In this document: positions 4,052 to 22,229 of the stretch, piece after piece
Layout: each line of letters begins with the position of its first letter
Position numbering within the stretch: position 1 is the stretch's first letter
IMG/VR virus record: IMGVR_UViG_3300025896_000203
Span: 1-22,229 of that record
DNA length: 22,229 bases
Origin: a virus
Reading direction: 5' to 3' (one strand)
Position numbers and translations under genes: made by a program
The notes under the pieces: generated by a model
Told to the model about the DNA's origin: nothing
Databases searched by the model: none
The model's input: only the letters and a program-made list of their open reading frames with translations

Positions 4052-4720
4052 TTAGCTGACAGAGACAATGAGCCCGATGGACTCAGTCGCCCCGGACGTT
4101 GCCGAAATTGTCTTGGTGCCGGATGTTGAAAAGGCCGCTGATGCGGAGCTAACCTGAAACGCAGACCCACCGGGGTTGACATCGCTATTTTCTGTCAATC
4201 CCGTCCAAGTGAACGCCGTTGGGTCGCCGTTCGCGCCCACCGCAACCATAACCACCCCGCCTGTGGCGCTGTTGTTGTTCAGGTTTAGCGCCGCGCCCGT
4301 ATCCGATGTTCGGTCAATGGTCGTGCCGGGGGCAAGAATGTTGCCGACTTTGTAAAGCGACGTTGTGCAGCGGTCATTTGATGTCGAGGTGGAAACCACA
4401 ACGTCATCGGTTCCGTCCGTGGTGATGTTGGTGGTGCTTATCCAGATGCTCACCCCCTGCCTGCCGTTCACGCCCAAAGACGCGCCGTGCATTTTGGTAA
4501 GCGCGGTCCCTGCCAGCGTAACGGAGGTCGGGTCCGAGTTGGTCCCAGATGACGCCTTTCGGTAGGCCACCGTGACAATCCATAGCCCGGTTCGCACGCC
4601 CCCGTTATGGGTGTTGGTGAAACTGGTTGCGCTGGTCGTGGCGGATTGGACAGTGTCGTTATACGTAATGTTCGGAGCGGTTGTGCCGAACGCAAACGAA
4701 TTGATCAGCGTTACGCTCAT
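4052..4720 (-). CDS. Beta-rich virion protein, putative tail fibre or appendage
   Basis: This 222-aa protein is very rich in Thr, Ser, Asn and Gly with alternating hydrophobic residues, as in beta-sandwich fibre or adhesin domains. It has no catalytic motif. Its ATG overlaps the stop of the fibre-like gene upstream (ATGA at 4717-4720), suggesting the two act together as parts of the same appendage. A receptor-binding or fibre-tip role is inferred from composition and position after the virion hydrolase and before the endolysin. Confidence 0.55.
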   Translation of the reverse strand: MSVTLINSFAFGTTAPNITYNDTVQSATTSATSFTNTHNGGVRTGLWIVTVAYRKASSGTNSDPTSVTLAGTALTKMHGASLGVNGRQGVSIWISTTNITTDGTDDVVVSTSTSNDRCTTSLYKVGNILAPGTTIDRTSDTGAALNLNNNSATGGVVMVAVGANGDPTAFTWTGLTENSDVNPGGSAFQVSSASAAFSTSGTKTISATSGATESIGLIVSVS

Positions 4721-5343
4721 GTGCGGTATCCGATGAGGGCCACTTTCGCGCCCTTCGCCCCGGTCCCTGCCACATCAATATCAATGGTCATTTCGGCGTC
4801 GTCAGCCAGCGTCGTATCCGAGATAACCGCAGGCGTTGCCGCCGTAGTCGAGGTCAATTCGTTGGCGTCAATCGTAAGCTTGGTTGAGAGGATGGTCGTG
4901 CCGCCTTCGTTGATATCGAAGGTCGGGATGCCTGACGAAGAGGCAGTAGCCAGCGAACCCCGCACATCGGTAAGCGTCATGGCAAACGGCATGCGGAACG
5001 TGACTTTTGCCGTTCCGGTGGTGATGGCCGTAGTCTCGTCCGACACCGCCACAATGATGGTTTCATACTTGCGGAGCGTGGTGCCACTGATATCGAGGCC
5101 AGATCCGATGGTCAGGTATGCAAACCCGCCCGCGCTATCGTCCCAGAATACAACCCGGTCAGCGTTCGGATCTGCCAGCGTGCCCGACGCCGAGACAAAG
5201 CCCGCCGTTTTGAGCTGGGCCATGATTTCGCGCATCGCATTGTTAAGGCCCGCCATAGCGCAGCCTTCGTCAATGTTGATGCCACCCACATCGGTGTTGC
5301 TGGCCGCTGTCGTTGACCAGTCGGAATAGGCAGATTTTGGCAC
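4717..5343 (-). CDS. Tail fibre protein with conserved phage fibre N-terminus
   Basis: Residues about 8-45 (WSTTAASNTDVGGINIDEG, then a helix ending NNAMREIMAQLK) match the start widely found on phage tail fibres, where the N-terminal part attaches to the virion. The remainder (208 aa in total) is beta-rich, consistent with a short fibre shaft or tip. The start is GTG 5343 with AAGGAGG seven bases upstream. It is coupled to the following beta-rich gene, and the pair is the best candidate for host-receptor binding in this part of the genome. Confidence 0.7.
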   Translation of the reverse strand: MPKSAYSDWSTTAASNTDVGGINIDEGCAMAGLNNAMREIMAQLKTAGFVSASGTLADPNADRVVFWDDSAGGFAYLTIGSGLDISGTTLRKYETIIVAVSDETTAITTGTAKVTFRMPFAMTLTDVRGSLATASSSGIPTFDINEGGTTILSTKLTIDANELTSTTAATPAVISDTTLADDAEMTIDIDVAGTGAKGAKVALIGYRT

Positions 5344-5355
5344 TTACTGGCCTCC

Positions 5356-7506
5356 TTAATAGCTGATGCCTTGGCGGTCGTAATTGGCCCGCTGAATGGC
5401 AGTCGTCTCGAATTTGGAGTTATTGTCGGACCCCGCCGCCGTGCCGCGTGAACCCGGTTCGGCGCGGTATCGATAGTCGCGTCCGATCTGCGTGCCGGTC
5501 TTGTCGAACCGATACCCGCCCGATGTGTAGGCCGCTGGCAGGAGGCTGGAGCCGTTGTGCTGGAACCCTTGCTGCCCGAACATTGAGAGCGTCGGGTTGA
5601 GGCTGTAGCCACCTGCGGACGGCATAGGCAGTTGCGTGGGCATGCCGACAGCCTGGACGATGGGCTGCGGGGCAATCTTGGGCTGCACCACCGGCACCGT
5701 GTACGCCTGTTGGATGTACTGCGGCGGGGGAGGAGCTTTGGCGGTGTTGGGTGCAACAGGGAACGTTCCCGGCCCACCCGTTGGCATAAAGGGGGAATAC
5801 GGGACATTCTTGGCCGATCCGAGCATGCCAGCCCCGGCCATCACGTTCGCCTTCTGCGCGTTCATATAGTCGAGGTAGGCGGGGTTTACGATCTGGCGAT
5901 ACTGCGTGACCGGAGCGGCTTGGGTTACTGAAACCGGCGCGGCTGCTGGTCGGGGTGCTGTGCCCGTCATGCCGCCGAAGCCGGTGAGAGGGTTTACGGG
6001 GGTCTTGGGGGCCACTGCGGCGGGCGCTGCACTAGCCCGGCCAAGCATCCCTTGCTGGAATGTGGGGGTCGCGGTGCGGGGAGCGGGCTGTACAGTTGCG
6101 GGCTGCGAAGCAGGCTTGTTGCCACCACCGAATAGGTTGGTCAGGAATGAGCCAGCCTGATTGGTCAGTTCTTTAGCCTTGGCACCGACATCAGCGACAA
6201 CCGCGCCCCCGACCTGCGCCGCATCGGCCTTGGCCGTCTGGACCGCACTCTGCCAGCCCTTGTCCACCAAGCCGCCGACGATGCTATTATCGCCCGCTTG
6301 ATCTATGAGGCCCGCGTCGATCTTTTGCGTCTTGCCCTTGCCATCCGGGCCGATGACGACTTTCACAACGTCCCCGGCAACCTTGTGCAGGCTCCCGACC
6401 TCGAAAGGCTTGCCGTTGATGGTTGTCATTTGCTTTGCGGCAGCGGGCTTGGCGGCAGGCTGTGAGGCGGGGCGCGCATTGCGCGGCATCGGTACGGGCG
6501 CTGTTTCCGCGACTGAGGTTGGTGTTGCGGGGCGGGGGCGCGGCAATGGAACAGCAGGATCAGCGCCGGGCATTGCGCCACCGCCGAACGTGCCCGGTCC
6601 GCCTACCGGCATTGTGGGAGAATACGGGACGGGGTTCGGCTTCGATACCATCCACGGCGGCATGTTCGGCAGCGTGTAGGGCGCGAACGATCCGCCACGG
6701 TTCATGGTGTCATTTGCGAGGCCAGTTTCCGCGATAGGCTGGTTACCGAACAGCGAGCGGCGGGCGTCGGTGTATGCGCTGCTCGGGATCGGCTGGTTGC
6801 TGGTGCCGTTGATGTTCGGCGTGACCGACATATCAGCGGGCACTGACTTGCCTAGTGCATATCCACCGGCTGAGATGCCACGCGGGGACGGGGAGCCACC
6901 CAGAGGCTGCATTGGCAGGTAGCTGTAGTCTGCACTTCGGGCGCTTTGCTGCGCTTTGACAATGGCGGGTTTCTGAGACGGATAGGGAGCGCCTTCCGGC
7001 CCCAACCGCACCGTGCTGCGTACCGGAGTTAGCCCCTTGACCGTACCGTGAAAATGCGTGCTGTCCCCGTAGCCAAGTTTTGGACCGTCAAGCGCGTTGA
7101 TCCACCCGAGGTTCTTTTTGTCCGAGTATCCAGGGTTAGCGTAGTTCAGCCCACCATTGACGCTATCCGGGGCACCCATTGCCCGTTCCTGTACCCAACT
7201 GGATACGATGTTCCGCATATAGGGGGGGACAACGCTATCCGGCACGGAATCGACGCTGCCGTAAACCGTATACTTCTTGTTTTTTGGCCCGTTGATCGCA
7301 GAAAATTGATTTTTTGCGTTCGCAACACTCGCGATGCTGTCGCCCCACTTACCGGATGCGACCCGGTTTAGTACCGTGTCTACAACGCCCTTGACCTGAG
7401 CGGCATAATCCTCGGGATGTGTCCAAGCCAAGCGGTGGTCAACTTCAGTCGCGACAAGGCGCTCAAGCTGATCCAGGCTCTTGCTATCGAGATTGACAGG
7501 GGCCAT
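5356..7506 (-). CDS. Large virion-associated protein with SleB-like cell-wall hydrolase domain
   Basis: The N-terminal 155 residues resemble the cell-wall hydrolase SleB family (Hydrolase_2): LERLVATEVDH (candidate catalytic Glu21), VVDTVLNRV (41-49), NQFSAING (66-73) and a THFHG end (150-154). The rest of the 716 aa is a long Pro/Gly/Ala/Gln-rich, probably disordered tail with internal repeats, for example VPYSPxMPxGGPGTF near residues 290 and 565. It follows the ejection-protein genes, so I infer a structural protein that opens peptidoglycan during DNA entry. The start ATG 7506 has AAGG eight bases upstream and lies 26 bp from the divergent + strand gene. Confidence 0.75.
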   Translation of the reverse strand: MAPVNLDSKSLDQLERLVATEVDHRLAWTHPEDYAAQVKGVVDTVLNRVASGKWGDSIASVANAKNQFSAINGPKNKKYTVYGSVDSVPDSVVPPYMRNIVSSWVQERAMGAPDSVNGGLNYANPGYSDKKNLGWINALDGPKLGYGDSTHFHGTVKGLTPVRSTVRLGPEGAPYPSQKPAIVKAQQSARSADYSYLPMQPLGGSPSPRGISAGGYALGKSVPADMSVTPNINGTSNQPIPSSAYTDARRSLFGNQPIAETGLANDTMNRGGSFAPYTLPNMPPWMVSKPNPVPYSPTMPVGGPGTFGGGAMPGADPAVPLPRPRPATPTSVAETAPVPMPRNARPASQPAAKPAAAKQMTTINGKPFEVGSLHKVAGDVVKVVIGPDGKGKTQKIDAGLIDQAGDNSIVGGLVDKGWQSAVQTAKADAAQVGGAVVADVGAKAKELTNQAGSFLTNLFGGGNKPASQPATVQPAPRTATPTFQQGMLGRASAAPAAVAPKTPVNPLTGFGGMTGTAPRPAAAPVSVTQAAPVTQYRQIVNPAYLDYMNAQKANVMAGAGMLGSAKNVPYSPFMPTGGPGTFPVAPNTAKAPPPPQYIQQAYTVPVVQPKIAPQPIVQAVGMPTQLPMPSAGGYSLNPTLSMFGQQGFQHNGSSLLPAAYTSGGYRFDKTGTQIGRDYRYRAEPGSRGTAAGSDNNSKFETTAIQRANYDRQGISY

Positions 7507-10792: not shown

Positions 10793-11422
10793 TCATATGA
10801 ACTGCCCGGCCAAAGAAAGTGCCGACATCCACCAGGGGGTCTCAGCCTTCATCCCCGCCGTGCCCTGCGATGAATTGTTCGCCTGCAAAAGCTGGAGGAA
10901 GCGATTGAAGTCCGCGTTATTGGCCGTGTCCTGCACCTGACCCGCCGTAAGCTGTGTCAGCCCCGGCTGTGTCGATGCGGTCTGCAACGCCGGGAGCATC
11001 CCCGCCGCCTGCGCCTGCCGGTCAAGCCCGCTGTTGTACTGCGCCATGTCCAGCCCGCCGAGCTTGTTGGTCAACTGGTCGGTGAGGTCGGCCACCTGCA
11101 CATTCGAGCCATAGCGCCCGGAAGCCCCGATGGAGGAGTTTACATCGCCCATGACATCGGAGCGGATGCCGTTGCGCACCGCCTGATAGCCTGGAGCGTT
11201 GACGCCGATGTTATTGCCCGCAGCCGTGTTGGCGTAGGACTTGATCGCGCCTTGGATGCCCGCGTTGTAATCGGGGTTATTGGCCGCGCCCATCAGGCTC
11301 GCAATGCCGCCTGTGGTGCCTGCGCTCGGTGCCGGGGCCTTGCCCTTCACATAGCTCTGAAGCTGCGTGCCGAGTGCGCTGCCGGTCTTTTTAGCGTCGT
11401 AACCGCCTGAACCACCGCTCAT
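10793..11422 (-). CDS. Putative ejection or internal virion protein, Gly/Ala/Gln-rich
   Basis: The start at ATG 11422 overlaps the upstream stop as ATGA and has AAAGG seven bases before it; an in-frame upstream start at 11464 is less likely. The 209-aa protein is rich in Gly, Ala, Gln, Asn and Ser, with a central helical region (TDQLTNKLGGLDMAQYNSGL) and a Trp-rich C-terminal end (TPWWMSALSLAGQFI) that may associate with membrane. Its size and place correspond to P22 gp7 (about 229 aa), the first ejection gene. The assignment rests on position, not a recognised domain. Confidence 0.5.
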   Translation of the reverse strand: MSGGSGGYDAKKTGSALGTQLQSYVKGKAPAPSAGTTGGIASLMGAANNPDYNAGIQGAIKSYANTAAGNNIGVNAPGYQAVRNGIRSDVMGDVNSSIGASGRYGSNVQVADLTDQLTNKLGGLDMAQYNSGLDRQAQAAGMLPALQTASTQPGLTQLTAGQVQDTANNADFNRFLQLLQANNSSQGTAGMKAETPWWMSALSLAGQFI

Positions 11423-11838
11423 GTCAAAGCCTTTCTGAACCGCCACCGGCCATCGTCGCCGCATGTCGCCTGATAGTCGTGAAACACGCGCCGCCAGCCC
11501 TTCCGGCCTTCAAAGCGCACTTCCGAGCACTTCGATTTCAGCGCAACTAATTCGATGATTTCCATCATTGCCCGCATGTCGTCGGGGCCATTGCCCAACC
11601 CGCCCGCGTAGACGATCACCAGCGCCCGTTTTAGGGTTCCGGCAAAGCGCTGCACCTCCGTAGCGAGGAACCCGTCAGACGGGCCGCTACAGCGCCAGAA
11701 TTGCATTTGCCCACTGATCGCCATGCCGAGCATGTCGAGCCAGTTGGCCTTGGGGTCGCGCTTGATGGCCTGTTTTAGTCCACGACTGATTTCGCCCCAC
11801 TCGTGCAGGACGCGGGACGGTGGCAGGGGTTGGAGCAT
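11419..11838 (-). CDS. Small conserved-type phage head or ejection accessory protein
   Basis: This protein of about 139 aa has an N-terminal helix (HEWGEISRGLKQAI), a hydrophobic core segment (LKRALVIVYAGG) and a C-terminal CSEVRFEGRKGWRRVFHDY. The last segment recalls small GNAT-like virion-associated proteins of podoviruses (the R-x-G-W end of an acetyltransferase-type fold), but an acetyl-CoA site is not evident. It lies where P22 has gp14. ATG 11838 (TGATG overlap) or GTG 11841 may be the start; both leave the product essentially unchanged. Confidence 0.5.
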   Translation of the reverse strand: MLQPLPPSRVLHEWGEISRGLKQAIKRDPKANWLDMLGMAISGQMQFWRCSGPSDGFLATEVQRFAGTLKRALVIVYAGGLGNGPDDMRAMMEIIELVALKSKCSEVRFEGRKGWRRVFHDYQATCGDDGRWRFRKALT

Positions 11839-12191
11839 CACCTTGCTTGCGCGAACACTGGCTGTGTATAGAACGCCGTCACATGCACCTGATTGGCCGC
11901 GCTTGCCGTTGCCCGCAACGACTCCCCCGGCTCAAGCAGGATCGGGTTGCTGTCGATCGACGGCGTATTTGCCACCATCGCCAGCGTGCCCCGGATTTTG
12001 TACGCCGTAGAGCCATCGTAAATGTCGAGAATAACCGTGGGCGTGCCCGCCGCGACTTCGGCCAAGCGCACATACTCAACCCGCAGCGGGCCGGTCGTCG
12101 TCGTCGCGCTGATAATCGTTGTGGCGCTTGTCCCACTGAGGATCACATGGGCAAAGAGTTCGCGCCCGTTCTGGCTTTGGAAAACGGTCAT
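11838..12191 (-). CDS. Small beta-rich virion protein
   Basis: This 117-aa protein has alternating Thr/Val/Ile segments (HVILSGTSATTIISATTTTG, PTVILDIYDGSTAYKIRG) typical of a compact beta-barrel or sandwich. It overlaps the gp10-like gene before it (ATGA at 12188-12191) and the next gene after it, so it belongs to the connector and tail assembly cluster. A role as a tail accessory or stabilising subunit is plausible; no family is recognised. Confidence 0.5.
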   Translation of the reverse strand: MTVFQSQNGRELFAHVILSGTSATTIISATTTTGPLRVEYVRLAEVAAGTPTVILDIYDGSTAYKIRGTLAMVANTPSIDSNPILLEPGESLRATASAANQVHVTAFYTQPVFAQAR

Positions 12192-13642
12192 CGCCGCCCT
12201 CCCGGAACCGCATTCGGAAAGTCAATGCCGCGCACAAAGGTCCACGATTCACCCGCCGCGATGCTCATCCGCGCCGACTTGCACTTGCCGCGCGACCGCG
12301 CCTGACACCAGCCAGATGCATTCTTGGCATACGCCGTGCCCCATGCCACCGTGTCGGACAGGGCTTTGCGCGTTCCGATGGCCACCGTGACATTGGCAGA
12401 GTCAGTTACCGGCGTAACCCGTGTCACCACATCGTCGGTTTCGCTCATCAGCGTTGACGTATCGAGCGTGGCGGCAAGATTGGCACCGCCGAAGAACCCC
12501 GGCTTATAGCTGGCGTCGATCCCGAGCAACGCTTCGTCACCACCGACCCAGAACCGGCTATCAGGGCCATAGGGGGCCGTGTCCACCGTACCGATCGCAC
12601 TGGCATTGTCCGCCGTGTATCCCGGTAATGCCGACTGAAACAGTCCGCTGGTCTGCGTTGCTACGGTGACAAATTCACCGCTGTTGAGGTTCAGCGTGAT
12701 CAGCTTTTCAAAGATGGTGGTCGAATTGTTGGCCTTCTCCTGATAGCGCCACACAATGCGCTTATAGGTTGGGTCGTAGACGCCCTGAATGGTCGAAAGA
12801 TCACCCACAAGGCTTTCGATAAAGGTCCGGCTGACCTTGTTCTCACCGATGTTTACCACGCCTTCCGGGCTTGCCCGCTTGAAACCGTCCGTATCGATGA
12901 AATACCCCGCACCGTTCACAAAGACCGCATTCCAGGGGTTAACCGATCCAACCCCATCCGCTAGCTTGTTGCGGGCAAAGATGCGTCGATCCCCGGTTCG
13001 CGTCAGCAAGTGCACTGCCTTGCGTTGCAGGACGAGTGCATAGCCTTGGGAGAGTTCACCCCCGGCCATCAGTTCCTCGCCGTCTGCAAAGGGCTGATAG
13101 CCCGCGCCAGCGGTTGTCCAATTGGTATAGCCACCCGGGGCCGAATAGCGCATCAGGCGGGAATCGCCGTCGCTGTAAAGGCCAGCCACCGTCTCGAACA
13201 GGTTGAAGATGTACCGGAACTTCGGGGCACCCGACACCGCCGCCACACCGGCAGGGGTTTCGAGGTCATAATCCAGCAGCCCATCGGCTGTGTTGGTCAT
13301 CAGCAGCTTGTTGCCGTACTGGACGAAAGACCAGTTATCGGTTGAGGGGCACGCCTTGCCGGTCGTGATCGATGTCCACGTAAAGTCGTTGGCCATTTCC
13401 TGCACGGTTGCCGCCGTGCCGACGAACATCTTCTTGGTGCCCGACTGGAGCACCGCCTTGATCCCGCCCTGCGGCCTTGCCGGAAGCGCACCGGCCGCAG
13501 AGGTGACGGAAAGGCTGGGCTGCGGGCTGTAGGCTAGGCCCGCCTCGTCGCCCTTGATGATCACATTCATCACGTAGGCAGATACGCCGGAATTGGACGC
13601 AGCCATATCCGGGCGGTAGGGTCCAACGGGCAACAGGGTCAC
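12188..13642 (-). CDS. P22 gp10-like tail accessory (head-closure) protein
   Basis: This 484-aa, beta-rich protein has repeating Trp/Gly/Asp blade-like segments (TDNWSFVQYGNKLLMTNTADG, DSRLMRYSAPGGYTNW, DPTYKRIVWRYQ in broken form), consistent with a propeller-like fold. P22 gp10 is about 472 aa and binds below the adaptor to close the head. Here the gene likewise directly follows the adaptor gene and precedes the ejection genes. The GTG start at 13642 overlaps the adaptor stop (GTGA). Identification is by length, fold impression and order, not by a single diagnostic motif. Confidence 0.6.
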   Translation of the reverse strand: MTLLPVGPYRPDMAASNSGVSAYVMNVIIKGDEAGLAYSPQPSLSVTSAAGALPARPQGGIKAVLQSGTKKMFVGTAATVQEMANDFTWTSITTGKACPSTDNWSFVQYGNKLLMTNTADGLLDYDLETPAGVAAVSGAPKFRYIFNLFETVAGLYSDGDSRLMRYSAPGGYTNWTTAGAGYQPFADGEELMAGGELSQGYALVLQRKAVHLLTRTGDRRIFARNKLADGVGSVNPWNAVFVNGAGYFIDTDGFKRASPEGVVNIGENKVSRTFIESLVGDLSTIQGVYDPTYKRIVWRYQEKANNSTTIFEKLITLNLNSGEFVTVATQTSGLFQSALPGYTADNASAIGTVDTAPYGPDSRFWVGGDEALLGIDASYKPGFFGGANLAATLDTSTLMSETDDVVTRVTPVTDSANVTVAIGTRKALSDTVAWGTAYAKNASGWCQARSRGKCKSARMSIAAGESWTFVRGIDFPNAVPGGRR

Positions 13643-14253
13643 GGCGTCACCATGTCCAGCACCAATTCGGCATTACCGAACTGTGCGACATTGGACTGCG
13701 CGACGAGGTTGTCGAGTTCCGTCAGGCCGTTGAACTTGTGAGCGTCCGCTGCGCCGGGGTTCATTTCGTAGCGCTCGGCCTCGGCAAGGCACATCTCTAG
13801 GTAAATGTCCGGTGCCAGCGTTAGCAGCCAATTAGTCGTTGTGGTGGAGCTCAGGTTCGGCACCGAGCTATCGTAAATTGCGGTGAAGTCGTCCTCGGTC
13901 ACAGGCGCAACCTTGATGGACGATCCCTGGATGGCGTAGTGGGTCGCATCCGATGACACCGCGTAAGGGTCAAGCAGAGACAACGCGCTCCACGACACCT
14001 GTGTCAGAGGCAGCGAGCCGGTCACATCGCGCACAATCGAGCGCAGCATGATAAACCCGGTCGGCAGCGTTGCCGTGCCCGTCGAATCCGTGGTGATGGT
14101 CGATAACCCAGACCGGCGATATTGCCCGCTCAGGTGTCGGTTCATCACCGATTCCGCGAGGGCAATGAAGTAGTCCGTTTCGGTCGAGGTATAGGTCTTG
14201 ACCATATAGGCCCCGATGGCCGTGGTCAGTTCGCTGTACGTACCAAAGGCCAT
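13639..14253 (-). CDS. Head-to-tail adaptor protein (SU10 adaptor type)
   Basis: The 204-aa protein follows the pattern of SU10-type phage adaptors: an N-terminal helix (YSELTTAIGAYMV), TDYFIALAESVMNRHL (residues about 26-41), TATLPTGFIMLRSI, an HYAIQGSSIKVAP beta strand, TTTTNWLLTLAPDIYLEMCLAEAERY (in broken form) and a helical C-terminus. Such proteins form a ring under the portal and connect it to the tail. The ATG at 14253 overlaps the preceding stop (TGATG), and the gene is followed by the gp10-like protein as expected for podovirus connectors. Confidence 0.8.
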   Translation of the reverse strand: MAFGTYSELTTAIGAYMVKTYTSTETDYFIALAESVMNRHLSGQYRRSGLSTITTDSTGTATLPTGFIMLRSIVRDVTGSLPLTQVSWSALSLLDPYAVSSDATHYAIQGSSIKVAPVTEDDFTAIYDSSVPNLSSTTTTNWLLTLAPDIYLEMCLAEAERYEMNPGAADAHKFNGLTELDNLVAQSNVAQFGNAELVLDMVTP

Positions 14254-14648
14254 CAGAGGTTCCCTTCGCGGGTTCTGAATGGCTTGTTCTCATCGCGAGA
14301 CAGCCACCATTTGAGGAAGTCCTTGTCGCCCTCCTTCATGCGGGGGGCGATTTCGGAGAACATCTTGTTGAGAGGGATACGGCCAACCCGTACCATTGGG
14401 ACGTTGCCGCCCTTGTCGGACCCCATGCCCGAACCCCAACGCTTGGAGCCGCGAGAATTGCGCTCTTCGGCGTTGAGGCGGAGCAGGTTGTCTTCTTCGA
14501 TGAACTCGGTCTTCATCACTTCGATAGGCACGCCGGAAACCGGGTGAGTGCCCCGCCCGGTATAGCGGCGGAAGCCATCGCCGGTTTCAACCAATGTCCA
14601 CTTGCAGTTCTGGACATCGGCCTCGGTGAGCTTAATCGTTGAGTTCAT
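14253..14648 (-). CDS. Small phage head-region protein, hypothetical
   Basis: ATG 14648 is preferred (a GGAA-type Shine-Dalgarno sequence and a 17-bp overlap with the previous gene); an earlier in-frame start at 14711 would lengthen the overlap. The 131-aa product is charged and contains ADVQNCKWTLVETGDGFRRY near the start and KMFSEIAPRMKEGDKDFLKWW near the end. The location between the major capsid and adaptor genes is a usual place for head-completion or capsid-associated proteins. I do not know its function. Confidence 0.55.
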   Translation of the reverse strand: MNSTIKLTEADVQNCKWTLVETGDGFRRYTGRGTHPVSGVPIEVMKTEFIEEDNLLRLNAEERNSRGSKRWGSGMGSDKGGNVPMVRVGRIPLNKMFSEIAPRMKEGDKDFLKWWLSRDENKPFRTREGNL

Positions 14649-14985
14649 ATTCAGCGATTCCGGCCTTGCGGGTGGACTTGGCTTCATCGAGGGGCAGGCG
14701 GATGACCGCACCGGCCCATAGCTTGTCCGGGAAGCCCGTTCCCGACTGTGCGGGCGGGGGCAGTTCCTCGTCGATAAAAGCGGCCTCCTGGACCGTTTCC
14801 ATCATGCCTGCGGCGTTCTTCTTGAGGATGGCCTCGCGCTCGTACCCGACCACTTCAAACTCGCCGATGGGGCGGTAATTGCGGAGGAGCTTGACCGCGA
14901 TCATGCGGGGCTTTTTGGCGTCGATTGCGGCCTGCGTTGCGGGCGGCATAATGCTGATTTCTTCGTTGAGGGCGGCGGTTGCCAC
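14632..14985 (-). CDS. Small phage head-region protein, hypothetical
   Basis: GTG 14985 has GGAG eight bases upstream and gives 117 aa; ATG 14949 (105 aa) lacks a clear Shine-Dalgarno, and an upstream in-frame ATG at 15054 lies inside the hairpin and terminator region. The core reads KKPRMIAVKLLRNYRPIGEF then VVGYEREAILKKNAAG, followed by ELPPPAQSGTGFPDKLWAG and a charged end. It is the first gene after the terminator and hairpin that follow the decoration-like gene. A head-structure or assembly role is suggested by context only. Confidence 0.55.
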   Translation of the reverse strand: MATAALNEEISIMPPATQAAIDAKKPRMIAVKLLRNYRPIGEFEVVGYEREAILKKNAAGMMETVQEAAFIDEELPPPAQSGTGFPDKLWAGAVIRLPLDEAKSTRKAGIAEYELND

Positions 14986-15046
14986 AGTTTCAACTCCGGT
15001 TTCTGGGGAAATAGACGCGGACGGTTGCCCGCGCCCTTGGGATGGG

Positions 15047-15065
15047 TCACGCAATCACTGCGGGA
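15047..15065 (-). repeat. Intergenic hairpin element, divergent copy D
   Basis: On the minus strand this reads CCCGCAGTGATTGCGTGA and retains the CGCA/TGCG stem (15050-15062) with one extra loop base compared with the three other copies. The adjoining CCCATCCCA and AAGGGCG are shared with copy C upstream of the scaffold gene. It lies between a terminator and the GTG of the 14632-14985 gene. Confidence 0.6.
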
Positions 15066-15071
15066 CATGGG

Positions 15072-15097
15072 AAAAGGGCGGAGCCGGAGCCCCGCCC
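15072..15097 (-). terminator. Intrinsic terminator after the capsid and decoration genes
   Basis: On the minus strand GGGCGG (15097-15092) pairs with CCGCCC (15081-15076), with a partly paired GC-rich 10-nt loop, and is followed by TTTT (15075-15072). It lies 9 bp past the stop codon of the 15106-15531 gene. It would reduce read-through from the highly expressed scaffold and capsid genes into the connector genes; some read-through must be expected because no clear promoter is seen after it. Confidence 0.7.
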
Positions 15098-15105
15098 GAT
15101 CAGGT

Positions 15106-15531
15106 TTAGACCGCAGCGGACCACGGCGAGGCTTCGGTGCCGGTCGTGACGAGATAACCGTTCACCATCCAGAAACCCGCAACCACATCGGTGAGGGTAA
15201 CCATCGAACCGGCCAAGCCGCCCGTGGTGGAACCGTTCATCGTAATGGTGTCGGAGGTTGCGGACGCAAGCATGTTGGTGCCTGCAATGTCGGTCGAGAG
15301 CGCAACGCCGCCGTTCATAACGTCGGTGCTGTTGGCGACCTGGATGACATGGCTGCCCGAGGACACGGTGGTCTTGACGTAGATGGTGTAAACATCGCCC
15401 TTTCCGGTCGAAGCCGGAAGGGTGATGATACGGCCAGTCGTGGAATCGAGAACCACAACCGCGCCTGCGTGCGTATCCTTGCTGAGGGTCGTCGCAGCGG
15501 TGATGACGATAGGCTGAAGGGGATAGGACAT
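15106..15531 (-). CDS. Putative capsid decoration or head-fibre protein
   Basis: This 141-aa protein directly follows the major capsid gene, with AAGGAG upstream of ATG 15531. Its sequence is beta-rich with many Thr, Ser, Val and Gly residues (GAVVVLDSTTGRIITLPAST, YTIYVKTTVSSGSHVIQVAN), similar in style to small capsid-decorating or head-fibre domains. A strong terminator follows, so it belongs to the same high-level transcript as scaffold and capsid. The decoration role is inferred from position and composition. Confidence 0.6.
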   Translation of the reverse strand: MSYPLQPIVITAATTLSKDTHAGAVVVLDSTTGRIITLPASTGKGDVYTIYVKTTVSSGSHVIQVANSTDVMNGGVALSTDIAGTNMLASATSDTITMNGSTTGGLAGSMVTLTDVVAGFWMVNGYLVTTGTEASPWSAAV

Positions 15532-15543
15532 GATGTGCTCTCC

Positions 15544-16545
15544 TTAGCTCGAAGCCGAGATGCCGTAGGTATCGGCAACGACACCATGAGCAGCTTCGTT
15601 GGCGACCATCAGGGTGTACTCCACGTTGAGAACACGCTTTTCCGCGTCGCCGGTTTTCGCCGGGGTACGGACAGCAATGTCATCAAGGAAGGCCACGGCC
15701 ACCATTGAGGGGTCGATCAGGAACACGTTACGGGCAATGGTTGCACCGGCACGGGTCATCTGAACGTTCGGAACGACAGTGATCAGGCCGAAGTCGGACT
15801 GATAGGCATCAGCCGCTGCAACGATAGTTGCCTGCCCGCCCTTCACTTCCTTGCGGAGCGAAACAACGTCAGCATCATCGAGGAAACGGGAGAACACCGT
15901 CTTGTTGTAGTTGGACAGCATCAGCACATCCGCTTCGCCACCGGCATTGGTGGTCGAGAGGATGACATCGTCCATCAGCGACTTGGTGAACGCGCGCTGC
16001 GTCCCGTTGGTCGCCGCACCCTGAATGCCGTTCGAGAACGAACCCGAAGCACCGCCGCCGCCAATGCTATCATTGGTTGCGAGCCATGCGCGGAAGCCGC
16101 CCAGCTTGCGGTTGGTTGCGCCGTTACCGGTGCCCGCCGAAGCCGCCTGATTGCTCAGGAGGATCACTTCCATGTCGATCTTGAGTTCGCGGCCCTTCTT
16201 GGCGATTTCGCGAGCCAGCTCCGACTTGCGACCGGCCTTGTCAACCGTGTCCTGGGTACGGGAGATGATGATCGACTTTTCCGAAATCTGCGTGTAGTTG
16301 CCCACGCGCGTCGTCGCGGTGATCGCATCGAACGACCAATCGTTACCTTCCGGCACGTTGTTGTCCGGGTCAGGCGTTGCGAGGGTGTCGGTCTGCCATT
16401 CGGGGTGAACCGATTTGGCATCCTTGCGCCCGATGAGGGAGAGGAACGGTGTCTTCTCCGGGGTGATCATATAGATCTTGTCGGCGAGTTCTTCGCGATT
16501 TCCGGTCGCGTCGTAGGTCTCGTAGGTATTTGCTACCTGAGCCAT
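15544..16545 (-). CDS. Major capsid protein, SU10/DUF5309 family
   Basis: This 333-aa protein has the hallmark start of the SU10-type (DUF5309) major capsid family: an NTYETYDATGNREELADKIY-like N-arm, then ITPEKTPFLSLIGRKDA (residues about 28-44), HPEWQTDTLATPD and a VPEGNDWSFD segment. The later parts (SLMDDVILSTTNAGG, DVLMLSNYNKTVFSRF, LIDPSMVAVAFLDDI) fit the HK97-fold core. It builds the icosahedral shell around the scaffold. AGGAG lies before ATG 16545, 12 bp after the scaffold stop. The length is normal for the family and the call is among the firmest in the window. Confidence 0.92.
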   Translation of the reverse strand: MAQVANTYETYDATGNREELADKIYMITPEKTPFLSLIGRKDAKSVHPEWQTDTLATPDPDNNVPEGNDWSFDAITATTRVGNYTQISEKSIIISRTQDTVDKAGRKSELAREIAKKGRELKIDMEVILLSNQAASAGTGNGATNRKLGGFRAWLATNDSIGGGGASGSFSNGIQGAATNGTQRAFTKSLMDDVILSTTNAGGEADVLMLSNYNKTVFSRFLDDADVVSLRKEVKGGQATIVAAADAYQSDFGLITVVPNVQMTRAGATIARNVFLIDPSMVAVAFLDDIAVRTPAKTGDAEKRVLNVEYTLMVANEAAHGVVADTYGISASS

Positions 16546-16556
16546 GGGGATTGCTC

Positions 16557-17576
16557 CTAGATGAGGTCTGCGATTGCGGCGATGCCATCTTCGATGGAAC
16601 CGCTGCGGCGAAGCCGCTCAGACCGCGCCTGACGCTCGCTGGAGACGCGCGCTTTCGGGTCCACCCGCTTGCCCGGTCGGGCAATGGGCTTGGCCTGTAC
16701 CTGCTGCTTGACTTCCGGGGCCTTCGCGAGTGCCTTGCGATAGCGGAGGGCATCCCGGAGGATGAGCCACTGCTTGGCGGTGCGGAGGGTCTGGAGGTCG
16801 GCAGGATCGAGGCCCCACCAGTCAGCCCCTTTGGCCGTCACTTCCTCAAGGAACGCCTTGGCCTTCGCGTTATCGGCGAAGAAGGCGTCCGTTTTCTCAA
16901 GCTTCTGCATTTCGGCGGCGAAGTCGGCTTGCGCCTGCTTTTCCGCTTCCTGCTGCTGCTTTTGCGTGAGGGTCGTGCGCTCCTGATCGATGGCGTAGAA
17001 CTGCTGGAGGGCAGTCTCATAGCGCCGCGTCCGCTCCATATGCTGCATATAGCCGATGGGGTCGGTTTCAGGAGAGCCGGTGAACGGGTCTGGGGGTTGT
17101 GGCAGGTATGACTTGGAAAACTCGGTCAGTCTCTCAGAGAGCAGGGCCAGTGATTGAGCCTGCTGATCTACTTCAGAAGCCTTTGCCTCAACCTGCTTGC
17201 GCTGGTCGGACAATTCCGTGGTCTTCTTCGTGTAGTCGCGCTGGAACATCGAGCCGCGCTTGAGTTCTGCGATGGTTGTCACGGTGCCATCGTCAAGGGT
17301 TACCTTTGCGGTGTCGGGAGCAAAGCGCCCGCCCTTGATTTCGGCCTCGGAGCCATCCGCATCGTCTGCGGCGTCCTCGTCCTCAACGTCTTCCGATACG
17401 TCAATTTCGGGGTCGTCCCCGTCATCGGCGGCTTCGGCTGTCGCTTCCTCATCTCCATCAACGGGGTCCGTTTCCGGGTCGTCGGGCAGGAGATTGGCAA
17501 TGTCTTCGACCGACTGATCAAAGCTCGGGGAATCATCAACAGGCCCCGGCTCGCCGGGGAGATTGTTGTCTGACAT
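16557..17576 (-). CDS. Capsid scaffolding protein
   Basis: The 339-aa protein has a strongly acidic, low-complexity N-terminal third (residues about 1-85, many Asp/Glu), then ELKRGSMFQRDYTKKTTEL, a long coiled-coil-like Gln/Glu/Lys region (about 125-225) and a basic C-terminus (about 285-330). This domain order and the place right before the major capsid gene are typical of podovirus scaffolds, which guide procapsid assembly and leave. It begins at ATG 17576 with AAGGA nine bases upstream. Two hairpins (17619-17634 and 17594-17607) lie in its leader and could tune expression. Confidence 0.85.
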   Translation of the reverse strand: MSDNNLPGEPGPVDDSPSFDQSVEDIANLLPDDPETDPVDGDEEATAEAADDGDDPEIDVSEDVEDEDAADDADGSEAEIKGGRFAPDTAKVTLDDGTVTTIAELKRGSMFQRDYTKKTTELSDQRKQVEAKASEVDQQAQSLALLSERLTEFSKSYLPQPPDPFTGSPETDPIGYMQHMERTRRYETALQQFYAIDQERTTLTQKQQQEAEKQAQADFAAEMQKLEKTDAFFADNAKAKAFLEEVTAKGADWWGLDPADLQTLRTAKQWLILRDALRYRKALAKAPEVKQQVQAKPIARPGKRVDPKARVSSERQARSERLRRSGSIEDGIAAIADLI

Positions 17577-17593: not shown

Positions 17594-17607
17594 ACGCCCT
17601 TGGGCGT
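17594..17607 (-). promoter_or_regulatory. Leader hairpin before the scaffold gene
   Basis: ACGCCC-AA-GGGCGT is a perfect inverted repeat lying just before the scaffold Shine-Dalgarno sequence (GAGAAGGA). No T-tract follows, so it is unlikely to terminate transcription. Copy D of the other hairpin retains only the AAGGGCG half. Confidence 0.5.
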
Positions 17608-17618
17608 TCTGGGATGGG

Positions 17619-17634
17619 CCGCGCATCACTGCGG
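17619..17634 (-). repeat. Intergenic hairpin element, copy C (scaffold leader)
   Basis: The minus strand reads CCGCAGTGATGCGCGG, identical over 16 nt to the copies at 20088-20103 and 20547-20562. It folds as CCGCA-GTGA-TGCG with a bulged C and a final GG, giving a GNRA-class tetraloop. It lies between the 17649-17915 stop and the scaffold start. Confidence 0.65.
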
Positions 17635-17648
17635 GGCATAAGCCGGGG

Positions 17649-17960: not shown

Positions 17961-18731
17961 TCAGCCTGCAACGTAATCCGGGTCTAACCCCACCGGATCT
18001 GCCTGCGTAAGCTGCTTAAAAAGCGACAGGTCTGGTGGGTTCGCCATGATCTGCGCCAGCGTCATGGACGTGGCCGCAAACCGGCGCATATCCTTCGTGA
18101 TTGGCATCAGACCGCTGGTAAAAGCGGCACGGATCGTCAAGCCGTCCGCCGTCTTAAAATCGCAGCCGACCTGCCCAAGCAGGCACCCAGCTTTACCCGA
18201 CAAGTCTGCCCCCGTCTTGGACACTAGCTTGGCTGAGAACACGACAATGATGCCAAGGAGTGCAGTGTAGTCTATGCGCTGGGTGTAAAAATGATAGGCG
18301 GTTCCAGCGGTGGCAATTTGCGTGATCACCATATTTGGTGAGGCCGAATAGCTTGGCGCTGGTCCGGATGGCACTGCGTTGTCATCGCCGCCGCCAGCCA
18401 GTGGGAACTCAGCCGGATATATCTGGCCGCTCACACGCGTCCATGATTGGCGCTGCGACCACAAGCCTGTTGCTTGCGAAAGATCATAGATCGCAAGGTC
18501 TCCAACCTTCACCAGAACATCATTGTCAGGTGGGTTATCCTTGCTTCGATAGATGACGCCCCACGGTACGAACTTGGTCAGCCCGAGCGCTGACGCCGGG
18601 TTATTGTTACCTAAGTCAACGCGCCCTTGCAGGGTGATGTTGTGGTAGCCAGGCGTGACGCCCTCGGCAATCTTTCGGTTCAATGCAACCGTGTTGCGGA
18701 CCAACGCATCGGCGGTAATTGTGTCGATCAT
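17961..18731 (-). CDS. Putative virion appendage protein, hypothetical
   Basis: This 256-aa protein of mixed type has an N-terminal helix, a beta-rich middle (VLVKVGDLAIYDLSQATGLW, WTRVSGQIYPAEFPLAGGGDD) and a helical C-terminal part with two cysteines (GCLLGQVGCDF). Its start overlaps the lectin-like gene before it (ATGA at 18728-18731), so the two products may form one appendage. I recognise no family. Confidence 0.5.
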   Translation of the reverse strand: MIDTITADALVRNTVALNRKIAEGVTPGYHNITLQGRVDLGNNNPASALGLTKFVPWGVIYRSKDNPPDNDVLVKVGDLAIYDLSQATGLWSQRQSWTRVSGQIYPAEFPLAGGGDDNAVPSGPAPSYSASPNMVITQIATAGTAYHFYTQRIDYTALLGIIVVFSAKLVSKTGADLSGKAGCLLGQVGCDFKTADGLTIRAAFTSGLMPITKDMRRFAATSMTLAQIMANPPDLSLFKQLTQADPVGLDPDYVAG

Positions 18732-19612
18732 GGCGCCGTCCAGACTGCCAGTACCCCCACGTTCACGCGGTTTAGTCCGTTATCCAGCGTAGTCATATCG
18801 CCATCGCTCAATGCCGATTTAAACCACACATGGCAGGAAGTTTCGCCATTCCAAAAGTCGGCGGGACCGGAGCTGGCCTCCACAGACATCAAAGACGGCG
18901 AGGCCGTGTTGCTTGTGGAGCCGGCAGTACCAAGCGAGGATGACATATCTACGCCATCGATCTTCAATGTCCCTAGAGCCCCAGCATAGTCGCGACGGCC
19001 AATTATCCTGTGCCACACATCACCGATATCAGACGGCGTCGTAAAAGACTGTCCCGCATCCGCATCCAAGCGACGGCTCTGCAGGGCACCAGTTCCGGTT
19101 GCTATCGTCGTCAGCACACGGAGCCGGTTATTCGGGTTGGGTGTGAGCGTCTGCCACAGGCAGTTGTTTGCCGCCTTGCTGATGTATCGAGCAACGCTCG
19201 CCCCCGTCAGCCCGGCGACGTTTTGGCTAAAGGTCAGGCTGATCGACATCTGCGCAGTATCGTCCACGCCATCGCAGACGATTGATCGGCAGTGCGGGGC
19301 CATTTTTGCTTGGCTACCTGCAGTGGCCTGCGTAACGTGCCGGCTGTTGCCCGTCTGATCATATCGAGTAACCACAAAGGCATTGCCAGCGGCCCACGCT
19401 GCAACTGCGGCAGGATCAAGCCACCCATTTGCTGCTGCCGAGAAGTCCTGCTCCGCGTTATCGCTGGCTCTCCGCAGCCTCACTAGAGGGCCTGTGTACG
19501 ATGTCAGCAGGCGCGCCAGCCCTACGGCTGCAAATGCCGCTGGCAACCCATCCAACGGCGGCGTCCATACCCCCACGCCCTGAAGCAGGGTGTATTTGAT
19601 CGCGCTGCGCAT
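18728..19612 (-). CDS. Lectin-like (concanavalin A-type) virion protein
   Basis: The 294-aa protein contains GPLVRLRRASDNAEQDFS (residues about 41-58), LDPAAVAAWA and VVTRYDQTGNSRHVTQATAG (about 79-98), closely resembling the start of the alpha-L-arabinofuranosidase B catalytic-type domain, a concanavalin A-like fold. The rest (WHRIIGRRDYAG, LKIDGVDMSSSLG) follows the LamG-like strand pattern. In phages such domains usually bind or cleave surface glycans as part of fibres; catalytic residues were not identified. Its ATG lies 1 bp past the upstream stop (TGATATG). Confidence 0.65.
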   Translation of the reverse strand: MRSAIKYTLLQGVGVWTPPLDGLPAAFAAVGLARLLTSYTGPLVRLRRASDNAEQDFSAAANGWLDPAAVAAWAAGNAFVVTRYDQTGNSRHVTQATAGSQAKMAPHCRSIVCDGVDDTAQMSISLTFSQNVAGLTGASVARYISKAANNCLWQTLTPNPNNRLRVLTTIATGTGALQSRRLDADAGQSFTTPSDIGDVWHRIIGRRDYAGALGTLKIDGVDMSSSLGTAGSTSNTASPSLMSVEASSGPADFWNGETSCHVWFKSALSDGDMTTLDNGLNRVNVGVLAVWTAP

Positions 19613-19613
19613 A

Positions 19614-20063
19614 TCAGCCGCTGATGCCCGTCACACGGACCTGAATGTCCGAAGTGCTGGTGAGCGTCCAGCCCGTGCCGTCGATCAGGAGCAGATAGAA
19701 CGATCCCGTGTCCGCAACCGGGGCCATGACGATGTTGACCGCGCCCGAGCTATACTCATTCGGCGTGCCGTGGTCGTACAGCGTCGTGACCGGCACAGTC
19801 TTGCGGACCTTGAACGCATCAGCGGCATTGAGCGAGTAAGCCGCGTTGTCGGTCTTGGTCGTGTTGGTCGGGTCGGCGTTGAACAGCACCGCATTGAGCG
19901 ACGAGGTCACAGCCGCTTTCACCATGACAGAGATTTCGTTGATGATCAGGCGGCGGTTAAAGCCAATGCCTGTGTTGAACGTCATCAGCGCACCGACGAT
20001 GTCGCCCGCCGAATACGCACCGCTGGTCACGGTTGGCGTGACCGTGATGTCAAATGCTGCCAT
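19614..20063 (-). CDS. Beta-rich virion protein whose 5' end is duplicated
   Basis: This 149-aa protein is rich in Thr, Val, Ala and Asn (VTPTVTSGAYSAGDIVGALM, LIINEISVMVKAAVTSSL) and probably an all-beta structural subunit of the virion. GGAG lies seven bases before ATG 20063. The first 25 codons plus leader are present again at 20447-20573, on the other side of groES. A C-terminal GTGWTLTSTSDIQVRVTGISG stretch (read in parts) suggests a beta-sandwich. No family is recognised. Confidence 0.6.
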   Translation of the reverse strand: MAAFDITVTPTVTSGAYSAGDIVGALMTFNTGIGFNRRLIINEISVMVKAAVTSSLNAVLFNADPTNTTKTDNAAYSLNAADAFKVRKTVPVTTLYDHGTPNEYSSGAVNIVMAPVADTGSFYLLLIDGTGWTLTSTSDIQVRVTGISG

Positions 20064-20114
20064 GTGGAAACTCCATCAAAGGGAAAGCCGCGCATCACTG
20101 CGGGGGAGTGGTTA
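19988..20114. repeat. 127-bp direct repeat, copy 1 (after groES)
   Basis: It matches 20447-20573 over 127 bp with one mismatch (20106 G versus 20565 A). It covers the first 25 codons of the 19614-20063 gene, its Shine-Dalgarno sequence, a hairpin element and the groES stop codon. The exact match ends on both sides at unrelated sequence. Confidence 0.95.
20088..20103 (-). repeat. Intergenic hairpin element, copy A
   Basis: CCGCAGTGATGCGCGG on the minus strand, between the groES stop and the Shine-Dalgarno sequence of the 19614-20063 gene. It lies inside the 127-bp repeat, so copy B is its duplicate rather than an independent occurrence. Confidence 0.65.
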
Positions 20115-20405
20115 GGCAACCGCGCGGAGGTCCACGGATAGGGTGCCAAATACTTCAGACTGTTTCAGGATAACGTGAGCGTCCCCGACCGCTCTGGCCT
20201 CAACGCCACTCCACCGCCCAAATAGGACGTGGTCCCCGACTTTCAGCACCATTGGCTCATCAGCAGACCCCGGCCCAACTGCTTCAACGATACCTTCCTG
20301 CGGCTTCTCAAGCGCATTGTCTGGGATAAGAATCCCACCCGCCGTAATGTTGGCTGCGGAGACCCGCTTAACGAGCACTCGGTCAGCTAGTGGGTTGAAC
20401 TTCAT
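20112..20405 (-). CDS. groES-like: GroES-like co-chaperonin
   Basis: The 97-aa protein aligns by eye along the whole of bacterial GroES: FNPLADRVLVKRV (3-15), the mobile loop with GGILIPD (23-29) that binds GroEL, EKPQEGIVEAVGPG (33-46), KVGDHVLFGRWSG (55-67) and ILKQSEVFGTL (79-89). The roof-loop region (GSADEPM) is several residues shorter than in typical GroES. It probably forms a heptameric lid on host GroEL to help fold virion proteins, as T4 gp31 does for its capsid protein. AAGGAG precedes ATG 20405. It is flanked by 127-bp repeats, suggesting recent insertion. No groEL is in the window. Confidence 0.92.
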   Translation of the reverse strand: MKFNPLADRVLVKRVSAANITAGGILIPDNALEKPQEGIVEAVGPGSADEPMVLKVGDHVLFGRWSGVEARAVGDAHVILKQSEVFGTLSVDLRAVA

Positions 20406-20522
20406 TCATCTTCTCCTTGCTCGAAGCGATCTGCGCAGCGTTGGCCGCGCACCGACGATGTCGCCCGCCGAATACGCACCGCTGGTCACGGTTGGCGTGA
20501 CCGTGATGTCAAATGCTGCCAT
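20406..20522 (-). pseudogene. 38-codon remnant of the 19614-20063 gene, abutting groES
   Basis: The second copy of the repeat supplies a complete Shine-Dalgarno sequence, ATG (20522) and the first 25 codons (MAAFDITVTPTVTSGAYSAG, DIVGA) of the downstream gene. The frame then runs through foreign sequence (RPTLRRSLRARRR) to TGA at 20408-20406, directly next to the groES ATG at 20405. It may still be translated and deliver ribosomes to groES. A different frame over the same leader reads ANAAQIASSKEKMNEVQPTS then stop, overlapping the groES start; this may be the 3' end of the gene that preceded groES in its source. Confidence 0.75.
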
Positions 20523-20573
20523 GTGGAAACTCCATCAAAGGGAAAGCCGCGCATCACTGCGGGGAAGTGGTTA
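20447..20573. repeat. 127-bp direct repeat, copy 2 (before groES)
   Basis: Partner of 19988-20114 at an offset of 459 bp. It begins on the minus strand with the stop codon of the 20571-21116 gene and ends 25 codons into the truncated gene copy. Recombination between the copies would remove exactly 459 bp, including groES, and leave both neighbours intact. Confidence 0.95.
20547..20562 (-). repeat. Intergenic hairpin element, copy B
   Basis: Same 16-nt sequence as copies A and C, here in the leader of the truncated ORF that precedes groES. It is part of the duplicated 127 bp. Confidence 0.65.
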
Positions 20574-21116
20574 AGCCGCGAGTAGCAGCAATTCGATGTC
20601 GTCTTCGTCATCGGCTTGCGCCTGCTGTTCAGCTAGGGCGCGGAGGTAGCCAGCAATGGCCAGCGCGATATCGTGTTGCGATATTCCGCTTTCGGGCGGG
20701 ACGAGTATTTCGGTGGGCAGCACATCTGCCGCCGTTGCGTTAGTCCATTGCGCCCAGAACGGGGTTTCCGAAACCGCATCCGCGATGACGGCTTTCGTGA
20801 TCCGGCGCGCCACCAATTCAGGGGCTGGCTCGTCAACCTCGGTCGCGAGATGTTTCAGATAGACCAGCGGCTTGCTGGCCTTGAGATATGTCCTTAGCCG
20901 TTCAGCCGACTTGGCCTTGCGGGCCTTCCGGGCCTTGCCCGAACTTGGGAACCCGTCGCCGCCTCTGTCGCTTTGCCGCGCATCCGCAAGGCCCGACAAC
21001 GCGCCCGAACCAGACAGGCTTGCCGACATTGCGCCGGGGTCTTGTTCCCCGCCTTGGAAATAGCCGGGCGGGAAATACCCTGGGGGGTAAAATTTATCCG
21101 CAAAGCTATCGGCCAT
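20571..21116 (-). CDS. Virion-associated protein with PPGYF repeats
   Basis: The 181-aa protein starts with a tandem FYPPGYFPPGYFQGG (residues 9-23), then SASLSGSGALSG (31-42), a Lys/Arg-rich linker (SSGKARKARKAKSAERLR) and a helical acidic C-terminal domain ending EDDIELLLLAA. The LSGSG motif is shared with the adjacent 261-aa protein, suggesting a common assembly or derivation. It overlaps that gene by 1 bp (TGATG). The role is probably structural (tail or appendage); no family is recognised. Confidence 0.55.
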   Translation of the reverse strand: MADSFADKFYPPGYFPPGYFQGGEQDPGAMSASLSGSGALSGLADARQSDRGGDGFPSSGKARKARKAKSAERLRTYLKASKPLVYLKHLATEVDEPAPELVARRITKAVIADAVSETPFWAQWTNATAADVLPTEILVPPESGISQHDIALAIAGYLRALAEQQAQADDEDDIELLLLAA

Positions 21117-21901
21117 CAGTCAAGGTCCAGAGTGATCGCCGTCCTGTTGCCGTTGCTATCCACGGTTGCGATAATGCGGTCCGTGTCGTCAGCCATTGAG
21201 TTTCTGAACGTGATCGTAGTGGTTTCCGCACCGGACACCTTGCCCGCCGTGGCCGCTGCGATCACTCGGAGCGCCTGCCGCATGGTCAGCCCCACCTCAA
21301 CGCCGTCTGTGGCATCGAGAATGGCCGCTGCGATATTAGCCGAGGTCAGCAGATCGCCCGTGACCGTGATTGCTGCCGCCAGCGTGCCAAGTGCTGTGGC
21401 GGTTGCCGTTGCCGTCCCAGACCCCGACAGGGCCGCTGTGTGATGCCCTATGGCCGTCACCAGCCCGGATAGATCGCCTTCACCCGCAAGTGACGCCGCA
21501 AGGTTCAAAAACGCCTGTAGCGTGGCGCTAGAGATAGTCCCCGACCCGCTCAACGAAGCGGCCATCGAGATGATGAGCGCGCCAACGCCGGTTAGCGAAC
21601 CCGCACCCGCAAGGCTGGCCTCGCCGTTGACGCCGCCCGCCATTGAAATGCTTGCGTCACCCGACCCGACGATATTGTTTCGTGCCGACAGTGCACCCGC
21701 CTTGATCGGCAGAACCCACGAATACGGAGGCCGATACCCATCCGGGACGCCAGACTTAGGCTCCCATTCCGAGCCGGTGAACGCCCCGCGCGCTTGGCTA
21801 GAGCCGTTAAAGTCCGAGCGGTTGTTTCCCAGCCCAATCGCCCCTCCGCCAATCCGGCGTCCGGGGTCTTTGGCTAGGACCGAATAATTCCCGATCAGCA
21901 T
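21116..21901 (-). CDS. Phage structural (tail or appendage) protein with SLSGSG-type repeats
   Basis: This 261-aa protein has an N-terminal region with FNGSSQARGAFTGSEWEPKS, a middle made of degenerate hydrophobic/Gly repeats (SLAGAGSLTGVG, SLSGSGTISS, SLAGEGDLSG, ALSGSGTATA) and a C-terminal module (LRVIAAATAGKVSGAETTTI, then DRIIATVDSNGNRTAITLDLD) of a kind recurrent in phage tail proteins. The repeats probably form a membrane-like or beta-helical stalk; this is inference. The ATG at 21901 is 3 bp after the upstream stop. Confidence 0.6.
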   Translation of the reverse strand: MLIGNYSVLAKDPGRRIGGGAIGLGNNRSDFNGSSQARGAFTGSEWEPKSGVPDGYRPPYSWVLPIKAGALSARNNIVGSGDASISMAGGVNGEASLAGAGSLTGVGALIISMAASLSGSGTISSATLQAFLNLAASLAGEGDLSGLVTAIGHHTAALSGSGTATATATALGTLAAAITVTGDLLTSANIAAAILDATDGVEVGLTMRQALRVIAAATAGKVSGAETTTITFRNSMADDTDRIIATVDSNGNRTAITLDLD

Positions 21902-21904
21902 GGG

Positions 21905-22229
21905 TCAGCCCCACGCGAAATCCAGATGGCCGAAGAAGCTTGACGCAACCGGGGTGGCAGCGCCAGCATACATCAGCCACACAAGGCACGCACCGTCATA
22001 AACCCTTGGCAAGGACGGCAACTGGTTGAGCAGGTCACGCTCCGCCGCTACGCCAATTGTCGTCATAGGCAGCGTCAGAAGCGGGCGGCACAGCACGAGG
22101 TTCGTCGTCCCTGAGGTGTGCGTGACGTTGTAGCTGAATTGCTCAACAGTTCGGATGCCGCCATCACCAGCCGCAAGCGGAATGAACGGGCCGAACTTGC
22201 CCGCCGCAACGCCGGAATATTCGATGCTC
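21905..22229 (-). CDS. Phage tail or appendage protein, 5'-truncated by window edge
   Basis: The frame is open from the window's right end to TGA at 21907-21905, giving at least 108 residues; the internal ATG at 22096 is unlikely to be the start. The visible part includes GKFGPFIPLAAGDGGIRTV, a beta-rich FSYNVTHTSGTTNLVL and PSLPRVYDGACLVWLMYAG, and ends FFGHLDFAWG. It is the first of three consecutive structural genes upstream of groES. It resembles uncharacterised podovirus upper-tail or appendage proteins in style and position. Confidence 0.6.
   Translation of the reverse strand, partial: SIEYSGVAAGKFGPFIPLAAGDGGIRTVEQFSYNVTHTSGTTNLVLCRPLLTLPMTTIGVAAERDLLNQLPSLPRVYDGACLVWLMYAGAATPVASSFFGHLDFAWG

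Follow-up and report, generated by a model that had tools for sequence, protein, structure and literature searches.

A phage groES gene between near-identical direct repeats: a probable scar of unequal recombination at a variable site between portal and scaffold genes

The window analysed here, which is the whole stretch of 22,229 nt, comes from a phage record of IMG/VR, a metagenome assembly, and carries a SU10-type major capsid protein, a scaffold protein and further head genes, nearly all on the minus strand. In the direction of transcription the order is Y (which runs off the window), X, U, the upstream copy of a direct repeat (copy 2), a segment of 41 nt, groES, the downstream repeat copy (copy 1), which merges into gene D and here continues past codon 25, and then E, F, G, the scaffold gene and the capsid gene. 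The phage's own portal gene lies beyond the window, and a search of the phage collection for DNA relatives of positions 19000-22000 returned none. The features discussed below are the following.

21905..22228, minus strand: gene Y, C-terminal 107 aa, running off the window; homologues in L180-L184
21116..21901, minus strand: gene X, 261 aa, upstream cassette; homologues in L180-L184
20571..21116, minus strand: gene U, 181 aa, closing the upstream cassette; homologues in L056 and L180-L183
20447..20576, minus strand: direct repeat copy 2 (upstream in transcription), with the U stop, a leader with hairpin and ribosome-binding site, and D codons 1-25
20530..20567, minus strand: conserved hairpin leader element (GNRA loop) in repeat copy 2
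20406..20522, minus strand: junction ORF, 38 aa, in which D codons 1-25 run on, in another frame, into the putative portal remnant
20406..20446, minus strand: putative remnant of a portal gene 3' end, DNA match to the L020 portal end
20112..20405, minus strand: groES, co-chaperonin, 97 aa, intact; Pfam Cpn10, PHROG 3188 and PDB matches
19988..20117, minus strand: direct repeat copy 1 (downstream), with the groES stop, leader and D codons 1-25
20071..20108, minus strand: conserved hairpin leader element in repeat copy 1
19614..20063, minus strand: gene D, 149 aa, predicted beta-sandwich protein; homologues directly behind portal
17602..17639, minus strand: third hairpin copy, in the usual place before the scaffold gene

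The groES gene is a complete ORF, and the Cpn10 domain spans its whole length (Pfam PF00166, positions 1-92/93, E 2.5e-24, 85.6 bits against a cut-off of 21.1), with a further match to the GroES family PHROG 3188 (E 4.7e-17). The product matches Cpn10/GroES proteins of the PDB both by sequence (18 PDB sequences) and by fold, the top Foldseek matches of its model being Cpn10 chains with a probability of 1.00, at a moderate model confidence (pLDDT 64). Proteins of the Cpn10/GroES family form a heptamer capping GroEL, and a hydrophobic tripeptide in their mobile loop binds GroEL. In the window protein the segment TAGGILIPDN aligns with the mobile loop, with the tripeptide ILI in the mobile-loop region, and T21 and G24 are invariant across the phage alignment. 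T4 gp31 is a functional analogue, absent among the 18 PDB sequences matched; the window protein is by sequence of the ordinary bacterial Cpn10 type and not gp31-like, and its model resembles gp31 more weakly. It may be expected to serve head assembly together with the host GroEL. An AAGGAG site lies 7 nt ahead of the groES ATG, and translational coupling of groES to the 38-aa junction ORF is possible because the TGA of this ORF directly precedes the ATG.

The initial annotation of this DNA had placed groES between near-perfect direct repeats on the minus strand, and both the Cpn10 match and the computed repeat bear this out. The repeat, given there as 127 bp with one mismatch, is the same one cut just inside the outer mismatch; at full length it comprises 130 nt, and its 2 mismatches, at 20106/20565 and 20115/20574, fall within the 12 nt with which it opens on the minus strand; from there on the copies are identical over 118 nt, which take in 25 codons of D. 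Its limits had been drawn correctly, copy 2 starting at the U stop and both copies ending after D codon 25, and the start-to-start period is 459 nt. Because the copies are in register, removal of one period would be clean and leave the U stop, a single leader and an intact D ORF, the simple two-gene junction that had been predicted. When 182 loci (1.90 Mb) were compared with themselves, only two spaced direct repeats, that around groES among them, reached at least 60 nt and 85% identity within 4 kb, and the only other direct repeat in the window is a chance-like 39-nt pair at 77%. Since the copies are nearly identical, the repeat appears to be either recent, as the annotation had it, or homogenised, and its copies could recombine; it is plausible that such recombination would delete groES and restore U-leader-D. 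No contig with this groES-free variant as a second state was found.

Between the repeat copies lie only groES and the 41 nt that separate it from copy 2, and it is this short segment that carries most information on the origin of the arrangement. The peptide ANAAQIASSKEKMNEVQPTS read from it ends at a stop 20 residues on, inside groES, with an overlap of 23 nt. At the DNA level the segment agrees best, among all fetched loci, with the portal end of L020 (22/25 nt, E 0.007, in frame), and the portal end of L004 matches it at the same, homologous place. At the peptide level, ANAAQIASSK aligns with ANAAHIASLK, a score reached by 16 of 5000 shuffles, and the portals of relatives end in ANAAHIASLKPDPKPSGKPA (L020), ANSAHIASMKPQPQPSGKPAG (L004) and ANAATIAAMKPKPEPGKPAGK (L069); the distance to the stop is 20 aa in the remnant and 20-21 aa in L020, L004, L069 and L031. 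A degenerate search of viral contigs with the portal-tail peptide returned no match. Each of these statistics is modest by itself and the segment is short; because frame, position, stop distance and best-matching relative all agree, we read the 41 nt as the 3' remnant of a portal gene.

This reading gains its meaning from gene D, whose homologues stand directly behind the portal gene in L004 (72%) and L075 (56%), while a distant D-like gene, 20-22% identical to D, is found behind the portal in L020 and L069. The model of D (pLDDT 89) matches phage proteins in fold, no solved structure was matched by sequence, and the fold comparison with the PDB gave only weak jelly-roll-like matches; D would thus be a phage protein with a beta-sandwich. 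In the window, D codon 25 abuts the portal tail at 20446/20447, the reverse of the normal order in relatives, where D lies downstream of the portal, and such a joint is characteristic of a tandem duplication or an unequal crossover. In D the joint is preceded by the tetranucleotide GCGC, which in the L020 portal lies 2 nt ahead of the corresponding place, the phage's own portal being beyond the window. The portal remnant ahead of groES indicates that groES came, or stayed, with its old upstream neighbour, and the presence of a portal end, groES and D in one unit, together with the portal-D order of relatives, suggests an ancestral order portal-groES-D. The parents of the present arrangement would have been a phage with portal-groES-D and one with U-leader-D; no relative with either order was found.

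It is at this point that the interpretation in the initial annotation, an acquisition of groES in which the target was duplicated, has to be given up. A foreign groES unit that entered with duplication of 127-130 bp of target, leaving a repeat-bounded mobile or reversible cassette, is a tempting reading from the sequence alone, since taking out 459 nt leaves two intact genes, the GC3 of groES (0.60) is slightly under that of other genes (0.64-0.81), and groES is missing at this junction in all examined relatives. As regards this last point, which the annotation had proposed to compare, Cpn10 occurs in none of the 45 contigs retrieved with the capsid gene or in a first D search, and none of 34 contigs found by D alignment has groES at any D neighbourhood, only that of L084 having a Cpn10 match, weak and far from D; a genome scan with the capsid gene yielded three alphaproteobacterial loci with no groES match in the fetched stretch. 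The insert, however, includes the 3' end of a portal gene, in relatives the neighbour of D, and neither a transposase or integrase nor terminal inverted repeats were seen in the ORFs and repeat analysis of the window, with no inverted repeats between the direct repeat copies. We know of no transposon that a target duplication of 130 bp would fit. Transposition with target-site duplication was rejected on these grounds (the portal-gene end in the insert, no inverted repeats, no recombinase), and the insertion reading as a whole appears unlikely. A unit composed of portal tail, groES, leader and D codons 1-25 points to tandem duplication or unequal crossover instead, so that the observation of the annotation stands, its interpretation holds in part, and its mobile cassette does not; the locus is best read as gene shuffling at a variable spot and not as a self-mobile groES cassette.

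The variable nature of this spot is also evident on the other side of the junction. X is 69-71% identical in L180-L184, always between the portal and the end of the cassette, Y is 86-87% identical and directly before X in the same contigs, and U follows directly behind X in L180-L183, with 52-64% identity over its N-terminus. In L180-L184 the Y-X-U genes always stand behind the portal, and before the scaffold gene where the contig extends to it, and the portals of these contigs differ and are not of one kind. L056 carries a U homologue behind the portal, in the same portal-scaffold interval and with the same C-terminus EDDIELLLLAA; U alone had no match in viral contigs and phage records. Because it recurs behind unrelated portals, Y-X-U appears to be a cassette that moves between phages, and it may, as well as groES, be a newcomer. 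The portal-scaffold interval itself varies from 247 to 3304 nt among the 45 relatives. As a side observation, the cassette of L180-L184 consists of a 144-aa gene, a 290-aa gene, Y, X and U, with extra small genes inside it in L180 and L184.

Taken together, these observations make it fairly probable that groES is a working gene of the head operon and that the repeat was left by unequal recombination in the variable portal-scaffold interval. The ancestor would have carried portal-groES-leader-D, where the portal end and groES shared 23 nt, and the portal tail would then have become attached to D codon 25 by an illegitimate joint. This would probably have happened by tandem duplication of the 459-nt unit (portal tail, groES, leader, D codons 1-25), the first groES copy being replaced later by Y-X-U via recombination in the common leader. 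The same product would result from a one-step crossover between a phage with portal and further genes up to U-leader-D and a phage with portal-groES-leader-D. Either route would lead to the order Y-X-U-leader-D fragment-portal remnant-groES-leader-D, in which groES would be translated from its own AAGGAG site, and perhaps also by coupling to the junction ORF, and would presumably aid the host GroEL in folding head proteins. Upstream of Y this explanation predicts a 144-aa and a 290-aa gene, preceded by a portal gene. If the duplication-plus-replacement history is true, the phage's portal, beyond the window, is predicted to end in ANAAQIASSKEKM.

The same order could in principle be the product of assembly, two strains with U-leader-D and portal-groES-leader-D having been joined through their common 130 nt. 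The contig is a metagenomic fragment, the repeat is about as long as a short read or k-mer, and both halves match what two such strains would supply. A common leader, however, explains only the joints of U and groES to the leader. The joint between the portal tail and D codon 25 is without shared sequence of k-mer length; it would hardly arise in assembly and should require a real molecule. In addition, the independent contig L011 differs from window positions 11142-17109 at 2 of 5968 nt, which argues that the virus is real, though L011 ends short of the junction. An artefact is accordingly improbable.

Tandem segmental amplification is known from T4, where dmd-tifA is amplified through 2-10 bp of microhomology (PMC9391042), and from T6, where segB-tRNA is concerned (PMC13096335). 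The window resembles these cases in that a short locus is bounded by a new joint of normally flanking sequences and the repeats permit later recombination, and differs from them in having one full and one partial copy, with another gene fronting the partial one. The partial copy comprises the leader and D codons 1-25, repeated in register, and the arrangement looks like a resolved or recombined duplication. On the strength of the same likeness of unit and joint (PMC9391042; PMC13096335), and of the 118 identical nt that should permit recombination, one could imagine a live array with the 459-nt unit at 0, 1, 2 or more copies in the population, collapsed to one in assembly and amplified as extra GroES helps head-protein folding in some hosts. 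A single groES copy is seen, however, and the leftmost neighbour is U and not the portal, which makes such an array very unlikely. Just as unlikely would be an accordion, varying between 0, 1 or more copies within the population, by which the phage tunes its GroES dose to the folding capacity of the current host, with the repeated head-gene leader as the recombination handle.

Morons usually carry their own promoter and terminator and have no flanking duplication. The window shares with them the extra gene between conserved head genes, and differs in its flanking duplication and in having neither a terminator-like site nor a promoter-like site on the coding strand. A nearer parallel is L023, of the same phage group, in which the same interval contains a duplicated gene part together with the small gene G. 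This duplication differs from that of the window in being older (91.6% with indels, the first gene copy broken) and in not involving groES. It arose independently and has decayed; its two tandem copies follow immediately on the portal (4696-4945 and 5760-6009), with the remnant of a 285-aa gene and G followed by the intact 285-aa gene and a second G. A literature search for gene gain with direct repeats in phages found nothing, and in the literature on phage GroES a repeat and portal remnant around groES were not found described. The arrangement is interesting, yet of a known kind.

The leader within the repeat contains a conserved hairpin, CGCA-GTGA-TGCG, with a core of 12 nt that recurs in relatives (L056 6077-6114, L069 6904-6940, L058 1611-1647, L057 6095-6131, L031 6141-6177 and 8706-8743, L019 1654-1691, L037 1605-1642, L038 5450-5487, L054 4181-4219), mostly directly ahead of the scaffold gene. 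In that position it has the form CGCA-GTGA-TGCG in the window, L056, L069, L058 and L038, and CGCT-GNRA-AGCG in L031, L057 and L054, a compensatory change of one base pair (A-U to U-A). L031 and L019 have a hairpin copy downstream of the capsid gene, and the long stretch common to the repeat and these copies amounts to 25/25 nt in L031 and 27/28 in L019. The element is possibly a cis-regulatory RNA or an operator that acts on the head genes of this phage group, and the recurring leader may have provided the homology for cassette exchange. Folding of the 61-nt leader was not more stable than that of shuffled sequences, a covariance model recovered only the sequences used to build it, and Rfam gave no meaningful match. 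An intrinsic terminator was sought in the leader and none found, and the sole sigma-70 promoter-like site is on the other strand, with none on the coding strand.

Phage-encoded GroES is already known, as in siphovirus B8b, whose ORF19 is likewise a small co-chaperonin (PMC4294664); that of the window sits among head genes. The closest groES among viral contigs (L118, 54%) is located between portal and capsid genes. A recognisable head gene lies within ~6 kb in 24 of 66 groES contigs, and 15 of these 24, several being near-copies of each other, show the order portal-groES-capsid (L118, L157, L159-L163, L166, L169, L171, L172, L176-L179). Their capsid proteins belong to families other than that of the window, and the position is a recurrent one for phage co-chaperonins. 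At the present locus a step of phage gene shuffling seems to have been caught almost fresh, with a joint that names the portal as the previous neighbour of groES, and together with the portal-capsid position elsewhere this points to a recurrent link between phage GroES and head assembly.

Among the genes downstream of D, gene E (18728-19612) matches the profile of the alpha-L-arabinofuranosidase B catalytic domain (Pfam PF09206, E 1.3e-8) as well as a virion structural family, and its product is possibly a carbohydrate-binding head or fibre protein.
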